A program made the translations under genes and the position numbers. DNA of 64,000 bases, taken from NCBI RefSeq assembly GCF_025397915.1, contig NZ_JALIDZ010000006.1, positions 248,001 through 312,000 on the forward strand, in the 5' to 3' direction. The stretch is from Microbaculum marinisediminis (GTDB lineage: Bacteria > Pseudomonadota > Alphaproteobacteria > Rhizobiales > Tepidamorphaceae). How positions within the stretch are numbered: position 1 is the stretch's first letter; each line of letters opens with the position of its first letter. Under the pieces are notes generated by a model. It searched no databases, was not told the origin of the DNA, and saw only the letters and a list, made by a program, of their open reading frames with translations. Below, piece after piece: positions 1,757-52,549 of this stretch.

Positions 1757-4700
1757 ATGACTTCTGAAGCCAATCCTGGCCCCAACCGCAGGCGCGCCGT
1801 GCGGCGCGCTGCGGCGTCGAGCCTGAAGCGGCTGCGCAATCTTCGCGCGCGCCGCAGGATGTGGCTGCGCGTGGCTCAGGTGCTCGCGGTAATCGCTGTC
1901 GTCGCCGGCGGATTGCTTGGTGGCGCGGTCTTCCGACTGTCGCAGGGGCCGGTTTCCGTCGGCTTCCTGACTCCGCGGATCGTCGAGGCGGTCCAGAAAC
2001 AATTGCCGCCGGAATTTACCGCGCATGTCGCCGATACGGTCATCGAACGCGATGCCGGTTCCGGCGAGGTTCTGCTGAGATTGCGCGACGTGTCCGTACT
2101 TGGGCCGGACGGCGCCCCGGTCTTCGCCGCTCCGCGCGCCGCGATCGGTCTGTCGGGACTTGGCCTGTTTGTCGGCGACGTGATGCCGCGCAGCGTCTTC
2201 CTGATCCGTCCCGCCTTGACCGTCATCGAGGAAAACGGGCGGCTGCGTATGAAGGCGGGCACTGACCTTGCCACCGGCGAAGCCGAGCCTCCGGCGAAGA
2301 TGGTCAATCCGATTGAGGCATTCGCCGTGCTGTTCGCGGTGCTGGGACAGGACGGACAGGGCGGCGCGCCGGCCCTGTCATCGATCGGCGCGCGCGGGGC
2401 AAGCCTCAGCATCGCCCGATCGGACGGCACCACGGGCACGCTGCAGCAGATCGACGTATCGGCCGAGCGTGGCGACGAGCCCGGGGCGGTGACGGTAAGC
2501 GTTGGCCTGGGCCGCAAGACCGGAGCCCCGCTTTTAACCGCATCGCTGCGGCGGCGCGACGATGGAACCTACGCGATCGCAGGAACGATCGAGAATATCG
2601 CCCTGGACGATGTCGCTCCACTGGTTCCCGGCGGATTGCCCTTCGACATGACCGGGCCGATTTCTGGCCAGCTTGATGCCTTCATCGACGCCGCGGGCGG
2701 CTTCGACAATCTGTCGGTCAAACTGACGCTGGGCGCGGGATATGTCGGCAAGGGCGACCGACGGATCCTCGTTGACGAAGCAGACTTGGCCTTTGACTGG
2801 CGGTACGCCACCGGCGCGATCAATATCGGGCCGTCGCATGTCCTGATCGGCAACAGCCGCGGGACGGTCTCGGGCCAGATCGCCGTACCGAGCCGTGGCG
2901 ATTTCAGCTACGGCACCGTGCCGCTACGGCTCGACTTCACTGATATCGTTTTGGATGACCCGGATACCGGTGTCCCCGCAGCCTACGATTCGATCACCGT
3001 TGAAGCCTTCTTTGTCACCGCGCAGCGGGTGCTGCATATCAGCCGGATGGACGTCGCAGGAGCCGGAACCGCGGGGTCGTTCGTTGGGTTCATCGGCGGC
3101 GGTGGCGAGACGCCGGGCATCCGGCTTGCCGGCTCCATGACGCCCACCTCGGTCGAGACCTTCAAGACTGTCTGGCCGCCGTTCCTCGCCGACAAGGCGC
3201 GGCGCTGGTTCGTTAACCACATGCTTTCCGGGCAGATCGTCGGCGGTCGCGTCGATGTCGATATCCGCCCCGGCGAGATCGCGCGGGCTCTCAGGGGCGT
3301 GCCGTTTCACCGGGAAGCCTTCGACCTGGGCTTTTCGCTCAAGGACGGATCGCTGGTGTTTCTCAAGGAGATGCCGCCGCTTCTCGGCGTCAACGCCGAC
3401 GGCCGGGTCGATGCCCAGGAATTCACTGCACGGGCCACCACGCCCGGCCGGGTCGATCTGCCCGATGGCGGGACGGTCACCCTGCCTGCTGGGCGTTTCT
3501 TTGTTCCCGACATACCGGCCAAGCCCTCAAGCGGCGAGCTGACCATCGAACTCGACGGCGAGATCAGGGACATCATGCGGCTGCTCGACTATCCGCCGAT
3601 CGAACTGGCCACCCGGCGCAAATTCGACATAGACAGTTTCGGCGGCGAAGGCGCGTTCGAGTTCACCCTCAGAATGCCGCTCATCGACGGTTTGCGCTTC
3701 TCCGATATCGATTTGGGAGCCGATGGCTCCATCACAGGCTTCAGCGCGGAGAATTTCGGCGGCGCGAGGAGCATCGGCGACGGCAATATCGACGTACGTG
3801 TCGCCGACGGCCGGGTTCTGATCGAGGGGGACGCGCTGGTCGACAATGTCCGCGCCGATCTGGCGCTCGACGATTCCCTCGACCCCTCTGGTGCCCCCGG
3901 CGCGCGTTCCGTCACCATGACCCTGGACGAGGCGGCGCGCGCGCGACTCGGCATGCCGCTCGACGCGATCCTGACCGGCCCGATCGTCACGACCGTATCC
4001 GACGTCAAGGCGACCGAGTCGGGCAACGTCCAGCAGATCGAGGCGGACCTTACCCGGGCCAAGGTTTCGTTCCCCGCGCTCGGTCTGGAAAAGCCCGCCG
4101 GCCAGCCGGCGACTGCGAATTTCAAGCTCACCCAGTCCGGTCAGACCGTGAAGCTGACCGATCTGCGCGTCCAGTCGGAATCGATGCGTGTGGAGGGCAG
4201 CGCCGAATTCTCCAAGGCGGGCGGGCTCGTCAGCCTCGATATGCCGGTCCTCCGGACGCCGCGCGGCACCGACCTCGCCGTCAGCGGAACGAGCCAGTCC
4301 GGCGCCCGTTCATTCAAGCTGAAGGGCAAGGCGCTCTATATGCGGGCGCTGCTCGCGAACCTCGGTGAGGCAGCCGAGAGTTCCGGCAATAGCGGGAACG
4401 AGGTGATGAACGTCGAAATCGACGTGGACCGCGCGATCGGTGTCGGCGGTGAGGTCTTGTCCAACCTGCAAGGCTCGGTGAGGCGTGTCGGAAACCGGAC
4501 CGACCGGCTCGATCTCTCGGCGTTGACGTCGAACGCTGTCCCGGTCAGCGTTCGTTATTCCGACGACGGCGCCAACTCGGACCTTTCGGTCGACAGCGCC
4601 GATGCGGGCAGGGTGCTCGCGTGGGTGGGCTATTATCCGAATATGCGTGGTGGTCAGTTGCGGGTTGTTGCCGGCCGCCGCGGGGCGAATGCGCCGCTGT

Positions 4701-26598: not shown

Positions 26599-28050
26599 TT
26601 ACGCCACCGAGACGAGTGCGACCGGATGCGACGGCTTGCCGGTCCCGGGATGCGCCTTGACGACCCGGTTTCGGCCGGTTCTCTTGGCCTGGTAGAGCGC
26701 GGCATCGGCGGATTCGATCAGGTCCTCGCTCGGCATGGCGTCCGGCTGTCGACAGGCGCAGCCGATGCTGACGGTGACGGTGATCGGCTCGGCGGCCCCG
26801 CAATCGAAGAGCTGCCGCTCGACGGCGCGACGTATTCGGTCGGCCGTTGCCACGGCTTCGCGCTCGTCGGTATCGGGAAGAATGACGGCGAACTCCTCGC
26901 CGCCATATCGCGCGACCACATCTCCCGGGCGGATGGTGTTTTCCATCAGGTCCACCACGCCCTGCAGGATCCGGTCACCGGTCTGGTGGCCGTGCATGTC
27001 GTTGACCCGTTTGAAGAAATCGATGTCGACCATCAGCAGCGACAGCGGCCGCTCGTGCCGGTCGGAACTCGCGCAGTCCGCCGACAGGCGCTCGGTGAAG
27101 GCGGCCCGGTTCAGCGCGCCGGTGAGGCCGTCGCGGGTCGAGCGGTGTTCGAGTTCCCGGTATAGCCGTTGCAGCGAGGCGGCGGCGACGTTGAACGCGC
27201 GGCCGAGCTGACCGAGCTCGTCGGCCTTGTTGTGCAGCCGGACGCGATGGGCGAAGTCGCGCTTGCCCAGCCGGCGCGCGCCTTCCTGCAGGCTTTCGAT
27301 CGGATGGAGGATGGATCGGCAGACATAGAGGCTGGTGAGGATCAGGATCAGATAGCCGGCCAGGATCGCCGACATCATGACATAGCCCGCCCAACTGGAA
27401 ACGGCCTGACCGTTGCTGAGGTGCCGCTCGATCTCGCTGACCGTCCGGCGATAGAAGTCCGAGGTCGCGGCGTAGGCGCTTTCGAGGCCTGTGGTCGTGT
27501 CGTGGAACGACGCGGAGAACGCGGGCGTCTCCGGATTGCGTGCAAAGAGACCGCTGGCCGCCTGACGCGCGCCTTGCCAGGCGTCGTAGGCCGAGACCAT
27601 CAGATGGACGTCGATGTCGTCCTGATGTTCTTCGACGTTCGTCAGATGGCCGACGAACATCAGAAAGTTCGATTCGATCGCGCCTGCGGCCAGCTCGAAT
27701 TCCGTCGCCAACGCCGGGCTCTGATCTTTTTCGTAGAGCCTTACCAGCCGCTCGGCCTCCAGCAGCGAAACGGCGATATTGTGCGAGGGGGTGATGTCCG
27801 TCCGTACCTCGTGCACCGTGTGTTCGAATGTCGACAGAAGCGCGTACTGCGATGCCTTCCAGACCGCCGCGGTGAGGGTAATGCCGAGGAGCGCGCAGGC
27901 CAGCGCGAAGACGAACCGAACGCGGATCGACCTGCGAAACCTACGCGTGATGGCGGTCCAGGTCGGCAGTGCGCGGCGCGATCCCGGGCGATCGCCGGAA
28001 GCAGGTCGGATTTTCCCGGCGTCCCCGTTTTCTGGGTATGAAATGGACAT
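26599..28050 (-). CDS. Membrane diguanylate cyclase with HAMP domain
   Basis: Makes cyclic di-GMP from two GTP. In this 483-residue protein a basic N terminus precedes TM1 (about 47-67), a periplasmic four-helix sensor (68-220), TM2 (221-243), HAMP (about 244-297) and GGDEF (305-465). The active site is GGEEF (383-387). The product-inhibition I-site RPGD is at 374-377, exactly five residues before it, so the enzyme should be catalytic and feedback-controlled. The sensed signal is unknown. It converges with the HIT gene and is followed by no obvious terminator. Confidence 0.92.
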   Translation of the reverse strand: MSISYPENGDAGKIRPASGDRPGSRRALPTWTAITRRFRRSIRVRFVFALACALLGITLTAAVWKASQYALLSTFEHTVHEVRTDITPSHNIAVSLLEAERLVRLYEKDQSPALATEFELAAGAIESNFLMFVGHLTNVEEHQDDIDVHLMVSAYDAWQGARQAASGLFARNPETPAFSASFHDTTTGLESAYAATSDFYRRTVSEIERHLSNGQAVSSWAGYVMMSAILAGYLILILTSLYVCRSILHPIESLQEGARRLGKRDFAHRVRLHNKADELGQLGRAFNVAAASLQRLYRELEHRSTRDGLTGALNRAAFTERLSADCASSDRHERPLSLLMVDIDFFKRVNDMHGHQTGDRILQGVVDLMENTIRPGDVVARYGGEEFAVILPDTDEREAVATADRIRRAVERQLFDCGAAEPITVTVSIGCACRQPDAMPSEDLIESADAALYQAKRTGRNRVVKAHPGTGKPSHPVALVSVA

Positions 28051-37075: not shown

Positions 37076-37456
37076 TTGGCCAAGAAGATACTGATCGTCG
37101 AAGACAACGAGCTCAACATGAAGCTCTTCAACGATCTGCTCGTCGCCAACGGCTACGAGACCATACAGACGCGCCATGGCACCGAGGCCATGAAGCTCGC
37201 CCGCGAGCATCGTCCCGACCTCATCCTGATGGACATTCAGCTCCCCGAGGTTTCGGGCCTCGACGTCACCCGCTGGATCAAGGAAGACGATGAACTGCAC
37301 ACCATACCGGTGATCGCGGTAACCGCTTTCGCGATGAAGGGCGACGAGGAACGCATCCGCAAGGGCGGCTGTGAGGCCTATATCTCCAAGCCGATCTCGG
37401 TCGCCAAGTTCATCGAGACCGTGAAGCACTATCTGGGCGACGGCGACGAGGCCGTC
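37076..37456 (+). CDS. divK: Single-domain response regulator DivK
   Basis: Essential polarity and cell-cycle regulator of 127 residues (start codon read as Met). It accepts phosphate from DivJ and loses it to PleC, and controls DivL-CckA-CtrA. The phospho-acceptor Asp53 (LILMDIQLP), acidic pair Glu9-Asp10, Thr83 and Lys105 (ISKPIS) are all present. [20 protein letters not shown] is nearly diagnostic for DivK. No ATG or GTG is in frame close to the conserved start; TTG at 37076 (with GGGGA upstream) must serve. The TGA stop shares its final A with the ATG of the pleD remnant. Confidence 0.95.
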
Positions 37457-37458
37457 TG

Positions 37459-37700
37459 ATGACCGCGCGTGTCCTCGTCGTCGATGACACCCCCGCGGCG
37501 TCGACCTTGCGTGCCGGTATGGCGGTGAGGAGTTCGTCGTGGGCGCGGGCCGCCACACGATCGATTTGACCGTGAGTATCGGCGTCGCGGCGCTGGAGCA
37601 TCCCGACGATACGCCCGAACGCCTCCTCAAGCGCGCGGATCACGCCCTCTATGCGGCCAAAAAGACGGCCGCAATCGCATTACGGCAAGATCGGCATAAG
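37459..37700 (+). pseudogene. pleD: pleD remnant (internally deleted and frameshifted)
   Basis: The expected partner of divK survives only as scraps. ATG at 37459 begins MTARVLVVDDTPA, the start of the PleD receiver domain. About 13 codons later the sequence switches frame to DLACRYGGEEFVV (about 37503-37541), the cyclase active-site region, so roughly 340 codons of the receiver and linker are gone. Directly after GGEEFVV comes HTIDLTVSIGVAALE, so about 25 further codons are lost. Near the end a run of five A (37660-37664) replaces six, shifting ALYAAK out of frame with DGRNR...TAA at 37698-37700. Translation from the ATG stops after 36 residues. A 73-residue reading frame from GTG at 37539 is just the tail of the ghost. 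Confidence 0.85.
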
Positions 37701-37827: not shown

Positions 37828-38005
37828 GAAGTTAGAACTGTCCGGCGGCAGGGGCGCAAACGGAGGCCACACGGACAGCGACCGAATACCCTACGGAATG
37901 CTCAGGTCCGCCGCATCTCCTGGGTCCGTGGGGTTAGGCCGGTCGGAGTGCGGTTAGAGTGGCCTCCTCGTATGACCCGCCTCCGGCCGGCCACCAATCT
38001 TTTTT
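37828..38005 (+). ncRNA. Candidate structured RNA or attenuator, unknown family
   Basis: Complementary segments suggest folded RNA. CTGTCCG (37838-37844) pairs with CGGACAG (37872-37878). GGAGGCCAC (37862-37870) is a perfect match to GTGGCCTCC (37959-37967). The same GTGGCC can instead pair with GGCCAC (37989-37994), followed by a T-run at 38000-38005. The last two pairings exclude each other, as in attenuators. I could not match it to 6S, SRP, RNase P, tmRNA or a known riboswitch by eye. The boundaries are guesses from the promoter-like element and the T-run. Confidence 0.35.
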
Positions 38006-38109: not shown

Positions 38110-38254
38110 GGCGGCATCCCTCGACTCGCCGTGATCCGGATCGGCTTGAGCCGGGTACTTGTCGGCGACGCGGACCGACTTGAAAGTTTCCGGGACTTCG
38201 GGCGCGGTCGTCGCGCCATACCGCGCCTGCAAAGACGGACAATGCTTCGGCTTA

Positions 38255-38326: not shown

Positions 38327-38494
38327 TTATTTGATCTTCGCTTCCTTGAACTCGACGTGCTTGCGGACGACCGGGTCGTATTTCTTGACGGTCATCTTTT
38401 CCGTCATCGTCCGGGTGTTCTTCTTGGTCACGTAGAAATAGCCCGTGTCGGCGGTGCTCACGAGCCGGATCTTGACCGTTGTCGGCTTGGCCAT
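38327..38494 (-). CDS. rpmG: 50S ribosomal protein L33
   Basis: Ribosomal protein of 55 residues: [20 protein letters not shown] at the start and [19 protein letters not shown] at the end. The CxxC zinc pairs of some L33 forms are absent, as usual in Alphaproteobacteria (zinc-independent type). ATG at 38494 is the family start. It is the last gene of the minus-strand run beginning at topA and has its own terminator. Confidence 0.97.
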
Positions 38495-51193: not shown

Positions 51194-52549
51194 TCAGGTC
51201 GGCCGGACGAGTTCGGGGTGGCCCTCGCCGTGTCTGTCATCGCCCGTGATCACCCGGTCGCGGCCGCTGCCCTTGGCGGCGTAGAGACGCTTGTCGGCCC
51301 GCGACAGCAGGGCCAGAAAATCATTTCCGTCTTCCGGCGAATGCGCGGCGCCGATGCTCACGGTCAGTGGGGCGTTCAGGTTCGGAATATCCAGCTTGCC
51401 CGCAAGCCGATGCAAACGCCGGGCGAGGTTGGACGCGTCCTCGCGCGCCCGGCCGGAGGTGATCACGACGAATTCGTCGCCGCCAAAGCGATAGATCCGG
51501 TCGACCTCGCGCAGGTCGCGCGTCAGCAGCTCGGCCAGGCCACGCAGCGCGGCATCGCCGACGAGGTGGCCCGAATCGTCGTTGAGCTGCTTGAAGTTGT
51601 CGATGTCGATGACCAGGACGCTGGCGATATCGCCGCTGGCGATGATCCGCGCCGTGCATTGCTCGGCCTCGGCCTCCATGCGGCTGCGGTCGGCGATACC
51701 GGTCAGGCCGTCGCGTCCGCTGCGTTCGAGCAGGGTTTCGTACCGCTCGCGGTAGGTCAGCGCGTCGAAGACGTCGGCAAGGCGGGGATGGGCGAGGCCG
51801 TCGAACATACGTCGTTCGAAATGGCGCAAATAGATGCCGGCAAGTACGGCATAGGCCACGGCCGCGATCGACTTGGCGATCAGGCCGCCATACAGGATTT
51901 CGACCGGGATGCCGGCGACCGCATGCAACACCGGCCAGAACGCCAGCTGGTCGAAGGCAAGGACGGCGACGCCGCTTATCGCGATCCGCAGCGTCATGTG
52001 CGGGCCGAGCCAGCGGCCGACCTGCTCGTAGATCAGGATGATCAGGATCCCGTCGATCAGCAGCAGGACCGTGCCCCAGATCATCAACAGGCCCATCTGG
52101 TCCAAGAACGGGAAGTCCGGCGACTGGTCCGCGCCGGGCAGCAGCGTGTTGGCGCCGAGGATCGCGACGAGGCCGATCGTCAGGACGTTTCCCGCGAATA
52201 GGCCGTAGATCGGCTGTCGCACGGCGATCGCGTCCTCGCGGATATAGACCAGCAGGAGCAGGATGATCTTTCCGGGAAACAGGATCGTGGAGCCGGGCGA
52301 GACGACGATGCCGAACGGCACGGCCACGTAGAAGGTGGCGGCGAGATAGGTTTCGAGGAAATGCATTGCGCCGAGCGCGCAGAAGAAGATGCCGATGCCG
52401 TAGCGGTGCCGAAGCCCGAACAGCGTCGCAAGGACGGAGAAGTACAAAACGAGCTGACACCCAAGCAGCCCGAGATCCCACAGTCCCACGAGGGCCCCCC
52501 GGAAAAGGCGAGTGCGCGAAAAAATCAGCGTGTCAGAATCACCCGACAC
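51194..52549 (-). CDS. Polytopic membrane diguanylate cyclase
   Basis: Cyclic-di-GMP synthase of 451 residues. About seven to eight membrane helices fill residues 18-245 and form an integral sensor that I cannot assign to a named MASE family. A short coiled linker (250-275) leads to a GGDEF domain (277-440) with intact GGDEF (356-360) and an I-site REVD at 347-350, five residues before it. The start is GTG at 52549; no closer in-frame ATG precedes the first helix. Confidence 0.9.
   Translation of the reverse strand: MSGDSDTLIFSRTRLFRGALVGLWDLGLLGCQLVLYFSVLATLFGLRHRYGIGIFFCALGAMHFLETYLAATFYVAVPFGIVVSPGSTILFPGKIILLLLVYIREDAIAVRQPIYGLFAGNVLTIGLVAILGANTLLPGADQSPDFPFLDQMGLLMIWGTVLLLIDGILIILIYEQVGRWLGPHMTLRIAISGVAVLAFDQLAFWPVLHAVAGIPVEILYGGLIAKSIAAVAYAVLAGIYLRHFERRMFDGLAHPRLADVFDALTYRERYETLLERSGRDGLTGIADRSRMEAEAEQCTARIIASGDIASVLVIDIDNFKQLNDDSGHLVGDAALRGLAELLTRDLREVDRIYRFGGDEFVVITSGRAREDASNLARRLHRLAGKLDIPNLNAPLTVSIGAAHSPEDGNDFLALLSRADKRLYAAKGSGRDRVITGDDRHGEGHPELVRPT

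Follow-up and report, generated by a model that had tools for sequence, protein, structure and literature searches.

Introduction

In textbook accounts, PleD connects polar phosphorylation to c-di-GMP. In the relay to which it belongs, DivK and PleD are both targets of DivJ and PleC, DivK controls CckA, and the c-di-GMP made by PleD biases CckA toward its phosphatase state (PMC7003649). The phenotype described for the deletion of pleD in A. tumefaciens is mild (PMC3577659, PMC7003649): no obvious developmental defect was seen, and adherent biomass rose only modestly (PMC3577659). The loss of pleD restored the swimming of a pleC mutant (PMC7003649). In S. meliloti, the small RNA EcpR1 is encoded between divK-pleD and rpmG (PMC4414408). 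The name "PleD" is found nowhere in the main text of a 2010 survey of alphaproteobacterial cell-cycle genes (PMC2877005). A literature search at the level of titles and abstract openings found no report of repeated PleD loss in the order, which is weak evidence of absence, as subscription papers lie mostly outside its scope.

Here, we describe a divK locus of Microbaculum marinisediminis, found in a stretch of 64,000 nucleotides (the window), in which pleD is reduced to a remnant. The order divK, (pleD), EcpR1, rpmG is that outlined for S. meliloti, from which the window differs by the state of pleD and by the remnant of an aldehyde dehydrogenase-like gene between EcpR1 and rpmG (Table 1). With DivK present and PleD gone, the strain has in effect the same genotype as the A. 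tumefaciens pleD deletion mutants of the two reports cited above (PMC3577659, PMC7003649), although those were made in the laboratory and the present loss arose naturally. Very probably, pleD was inactivated recently in this lineage, through two internal deletions, one of them large, and the loss of one base.

Anatomy of the pleD remnant

Around 230 bp are left of the 1,371-bp pleD directly 3' of an intact divK. The initial annotation of this DNA, made from the letters alone, had described a pleD start right after the divK stop, followed by an out-of-frame jump, a second missing block and a single base missing from an A-run ahead of DGRNR, and had counted at least three lesions. All of this was borne out when the translated pieces were aligned with the intact pleD of the genus-mate G002 (P0001, 457 aa), which yielded three blocks in the order of the protein and a shifted DGRNR. 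The TGA of divK overlaps the pleD ATG at 37459. The first lesion, a net deletion of 1,048 bp, disrupts the reading frame as well, leaving block B out of frame with block A; the second removed a net 84 bp and kept the frame, and the third is the base missing from the A-run. The exact base of the first junction is not fixed, because a short CGCG stretch there fits either side. This stretch perhaps resembles those seen at deletions between short matches, and the large deletion may have arisen in such a way.

Table 1. Features of the divK-rpmG region (window positions)
Feature	Position	Strand	Description
divK	37076-37459	+	intact, 127 aa, TTG start, one Response_reg domain
pleD remnant, block A	37459-37497	+	MTARVLVVDDTPA; residues 1-13 of G002 PleD, start of receiver domain 1
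pleD remnant, block B	37500-37541	+	VDLACRYGGEEFVV; residues 364-377, contains RYGGEEF; reading frame differs from that of block A
pleD remnant, block C	37560-37661	+	IDLTVSIG...ALYAAK; residues 412-445, from the C-terminal portion of the GGDEF domain; same frame as block B
pleD 3' end	37662-37700	+	DGRNR (37664-37678) displaced by one base; no clear similarity beyond
EcpR1 sRNA	37886-37997	+	Rfam RF02500, intact, 104 bits against a gathering threshold of 60
Aldehyde dehydrogenase-like gene remnant	~38117-38211	-	head, and by eye a probable tail; limits approximate
rpmG (ribosomal protein L33)	38327-38494	-	intact, 55 aa

Chance similarity to PleD is ruled out by a tblastn comparison of eight intact PleD proteins with the 1.5 kb behind divK, in which the window gave E values down to 1.7e-14, while the best values were 0.12 in 32 other loci and 0.28 on reversed sequences. 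The remnant lies directly downstream of divK, in the position and order of the intact pleD of G002 and of five other family members (G003-G007), and therefore represents a pleD pseudogene. It resembles PleD as described by NCBIfam NF007135 (REC-REC-GGDEF) in its place directly behind divK, its overlapping start and the order of its three blocks, and departs from it in lacking nearly all of both receivers and much of the GGDEF domain and in its broken frame; the intact G002 protein reaches 652 bits with this model. Residues 14-363 are missing, so the two receiver domains that characterise PleD are not retained. In the family search the GGDEF domain is incomplete as well (profile positions 118-157 of 161 only), and in place of the open frame of about 457 aa expected for PleD, the forward strand holds frames of 36, 73 and 48 aa. 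As judged from its sequence, the remnant cannot make a diguanylate cyclase, since it lacks receiver 2, the first part of GGDEF and nearly all of receiver 1, and its frame breaks off after residue 13.

The product of the divK gene upstream is a stand-alone receiver domain close to the DivK proteins of the order, encoded upstream of pleD, and is 97.6% identical to the DivK of G001 and 91.9% identical to that of G002 (over 123 residues).

Close relatives and timing of the loss

Examination of the locus in close relatives, one of the checks proposed in the initial annotation, found divK, an intact pleD and rpmG in this order in G002, which belongs to the same genus, and in the five other members of the family compared. 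In G001, also of the same genus and the closest to the window by the identity of DivK, DUF3572 and MFS proteins, pleD is absent behind divK and no remnant of it is detectable there. The G001 genome is 85% complete, and its best PleD match spans residues 270-456 (E 5.5e-39).

The substitution pattern of the remnant was compared with that of working genes over 61 codons. G003, whose pleD frame is also intact, was left out of this count. Between the remnant and G002, the differences at codon positions 1, 2 and 3 numbered 9, 7 and 35, respectively. Against seven intact pleD genes from outside the genus, the remnant showed 10-16, 7-13 and 29-33 differences, and the intact G002 gene 12-18, 9-13 and 24-35. 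The codon pattern of the remnant is thus still like that of a working gene, which points to a recent decay of pleD. Under free drift from the split with G001 onward, no more than 16 differences from G002 at the 122 first and second positions would be expected with P = 2e-5 when the third-position rate of the MFS gene is applied, or 3e-3 with the rate of DivK; the test is small and simple (61 codons, plain Jukes-Cantor correction). A single loss common to the window and G001 is disfavoured by both the codon pattern and the drift test, albeit over these 61 codons only. The loss in G001 was probably separate from that in the window, and PleD may have been lost twice within this genus.

Diguanylate cyclases in the rest of the genome

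The window belongs to the one genome of its species in this comparison, an assembly of 5.1 Mb in 55 contigs with a completeness of 98.66%, and the site lies inside a contig of 373 kb. A genome-wide search for a second REC-REC-GGDEF gene, likewise proposed from the outset, was carried out with the G002 PleD as query and with all 71 candidates scored, and it revealed no second full-length PleD. The best other match in this genome covers only residues 270-455 (E 2.5e-40), and none of the matches listed, down to an E value of about 9e-5, spans the receiver and GGDEF domains.

The genome encodes 16 other GGDEF proteins above the family cut-off, not counting L018, the weakest match, which falls below it. 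None of the 16, the three longest of which were scanned from stop to stop, contains a receiver domain (Pfam Response_reg). Two GGDEF proteins are encoded on the reverse strand of the window itself, one with a VUPS (vitamin uptake-like sensor) domain at 51194-52549 and one with a HAMP domain at 26599-28050. The phosphotransferase ChpT is present, and fliF is retained.

PleD and DivK in the order

Across 297 sampled genomes of the order, each at least 90% complete, PleD was called at E <= 1e-60 among the best five candidates per genome, a procedure that a badly ranked PleD could escape. It was found in 250 genomes and was absent from 47, including that of the window; the loss is not particular to this lineage. 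DivK was kept in 41 of the 44 PleD-less genomes searched for it, the three without a DivK match being G179, G200 and G223. The genomes that lack PleD and keep DivK fall in about ten families, the window's own among them, and six of these (f1, f15, f23, f35, f41 and f50) also hold PleD-positive members. On this family count, the presence of both states in six families makes several separate losses of PleD likely.

At the level of the locus, a long pleD match lies beside divK in 77 of 80 named divK loci. The exceptions are the record of G001 itself (L120), Roseibium suaedae (L179) and a metagenome-assembled genome of Hyphomicrobiales (L196). In the 30 higher-scoring of the 41 PleD-less divK loci of the order sample, a direct check of the 1.5 kb behind divK revealed no trace of pleD, and rpmG was inside the retrieved stretch in 21 of these 30.

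The tallies of GGDEF and FliF matches cover 45 of the 47 PleD-less genomes, again with that of the window. Two or fewer GGDEF matches were present in 18 genomes (none at all in 10 of them) and at least five in the other 27; the counts derive from about 12 scored candidates per genome at most and are used here solely to set genomes with at most two matches apart from the others. FliF gave a strong match (E below 1e-30) in 23 of the 45 genomes and a weak one in four, with none among the matches listed for the remaining 18, and it exceeded the family cut-off in 224 of the 297 genomes of the whole sample. The loss of PleD and the lack of flagella may go together elsewhere in the order. As a cause of the pleD loss described here, the loss of flagella is contradicted by the FliF of the window genome. 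Family f4, comprising 10 genomes of 1.3-1.6 Mb, has no GGDEF match, yet a DivK relative is kept in it at 51-55% identity.

Alternative explanations and proposed working

A first concern with a gutted gene is that the assembly or the sequencing is at fault and the true genome carries an intact pleD. The aldehyde dehydrogenase-like gene nearby, which also appears as a head and a probable tail, could hint at a local assembly fault. Such an artefact is nonetheless very improbable, as it would have to account for three separate lesions of differing size at a site within a 373-kb contig whose flanks are broadly collinear with those of relatives; the missing 1 kb turns up nowhere else in a genome that is 98.66% complete, and the closest relative, G001, is also without pleD at this place. 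Less probable still is a retained use of the remnant, as a short peptide or as part of the control region of ecpR1. The window, G001 and G002 share a conserved EcpR1, and the sequence just upstream of it appears similar in all three by eye, but G001 has EcpR1 with no remnant at all, and the forward-strand frames of the remnant are short or shifted.

Two further explanations accept the loss of pleD and differ in what followed it. The sixteen other GGDEF proteins would offer material for the functional replacement of PleD by another kinase-controlled cyclase. We consider this unlikely, since not one of them has a receiver domain and no receiver and GGDEF span occurs among the matches listed, although it is possible that a replacement cyclase has its kinase-controlled partner in trans. 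The loss might also have been adaptive and have rewired polarity, for example if less local c-di-GMP disfavoured the CckA phosphatase and so raised CtrA output and motility. The renewed swimming of an A. tumefaciens pleC mutant upon loss of pleD, as reported in PMC7003649, the retention of fliF in the window genome and the recurrence of PleD loss in the order speak for such a scenario, which we regard as doubtful, if less so than a replacement: 18 of the 45 PleD-less genomes have at most two GGDEF matches, and there the decay of c-di-GMP signalling as a whole suffices as an explanation; a strong FliF match is limited to 23 of the 45. The initial annotation had concluded that PleD output was lost while DivK was kept, which stands, and that polarity or c-di-GMP control had been rewired, for which the persistence of 16 GGDEF proteins, fliF and ChpT gives no support. 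A rewired polarity is possible.

The finding is thus a real but fairly ordinary gene loss that is unusually fresh, a recent pseudogene of a dispensable regulator. After the inactivation of pleD, the kinases shared by DivK and PleD would work via DivK alone, onto the CckA-ChpT-CtrA relay, and c-di-GMP would be supplied by the remaining 16 GGDEF proteins, which are all without a receiver domain. The loss would be tolerated because the order can dispense with the PleD arm, presumably a redundant one, whereas DivK is rarely lost. Such tolerance is to be expected from the mild phenotype of the A. tumefaciens pleD deletion, with which the recurrence of PleD loss under retention of DivK also agrees (PMC3577659).

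With roughly even chances, PleD may be viewed more generally as an arm of the DivK-PleD relay that this order has discarded again and again, DivK staying behind, sometimes as c-di-GMP signalling collapses and sometimes in GGDEF-rich genomes such as the present one. If so, the connection from DivK to CckA would form the core that is conserved, while the phospho-activated synthesis of c-di-GMP would be an optional addition, and the window would be a rare case caught in decay. The apparently recurrent loss argues against divK-pleD as one obligate unit in the order. Natural, recent and apparently repeated losses of PleD with DivK kept provide natural knock-outs for the study of the role of PleD outside Caulobacter.

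EcpR1, rpmG and the surrounding genes

The genes flanking the locus are broadly collinear with G002 over about 18-63 kb and with G001 over about 35-57 kb, which speaks against a general local decay; pleD is, however, not the sole loss, since the aldehyde dehydrogenase-like gene also looks gutted. This gene is whole in G001, between EcpR1 and rpmG (L050:2090-3577). Its head in the window (~38158-38208) falls within an alignment to G001 in which 322 of 412 columns are identical, and gives a weak protein match (E 0.006). With a second, apparently gutted gene nearby, it may be the locus, and not pleD itself, that is prone to deletion.

EcpR1 is kept beside the pleD remnant, and also in G001, where pleD is wholly gone. 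It scored over the threshold in six of 18 scanned PleD-less loci, as well as in G001, G002 and Roseibium suaedae. The locus of the latter is like that of the window in that divK is followed by EcpR1 without pleD, and differs in that no pleD remnant was detected. Positions 4001-7048 of L179 hold divK, EcpR1 (4583-4694), a gene for a methyl-accepting chemotaxis protein and rpmG, and insertions may often occur in the interval that separates EcpR1 from rpmG.
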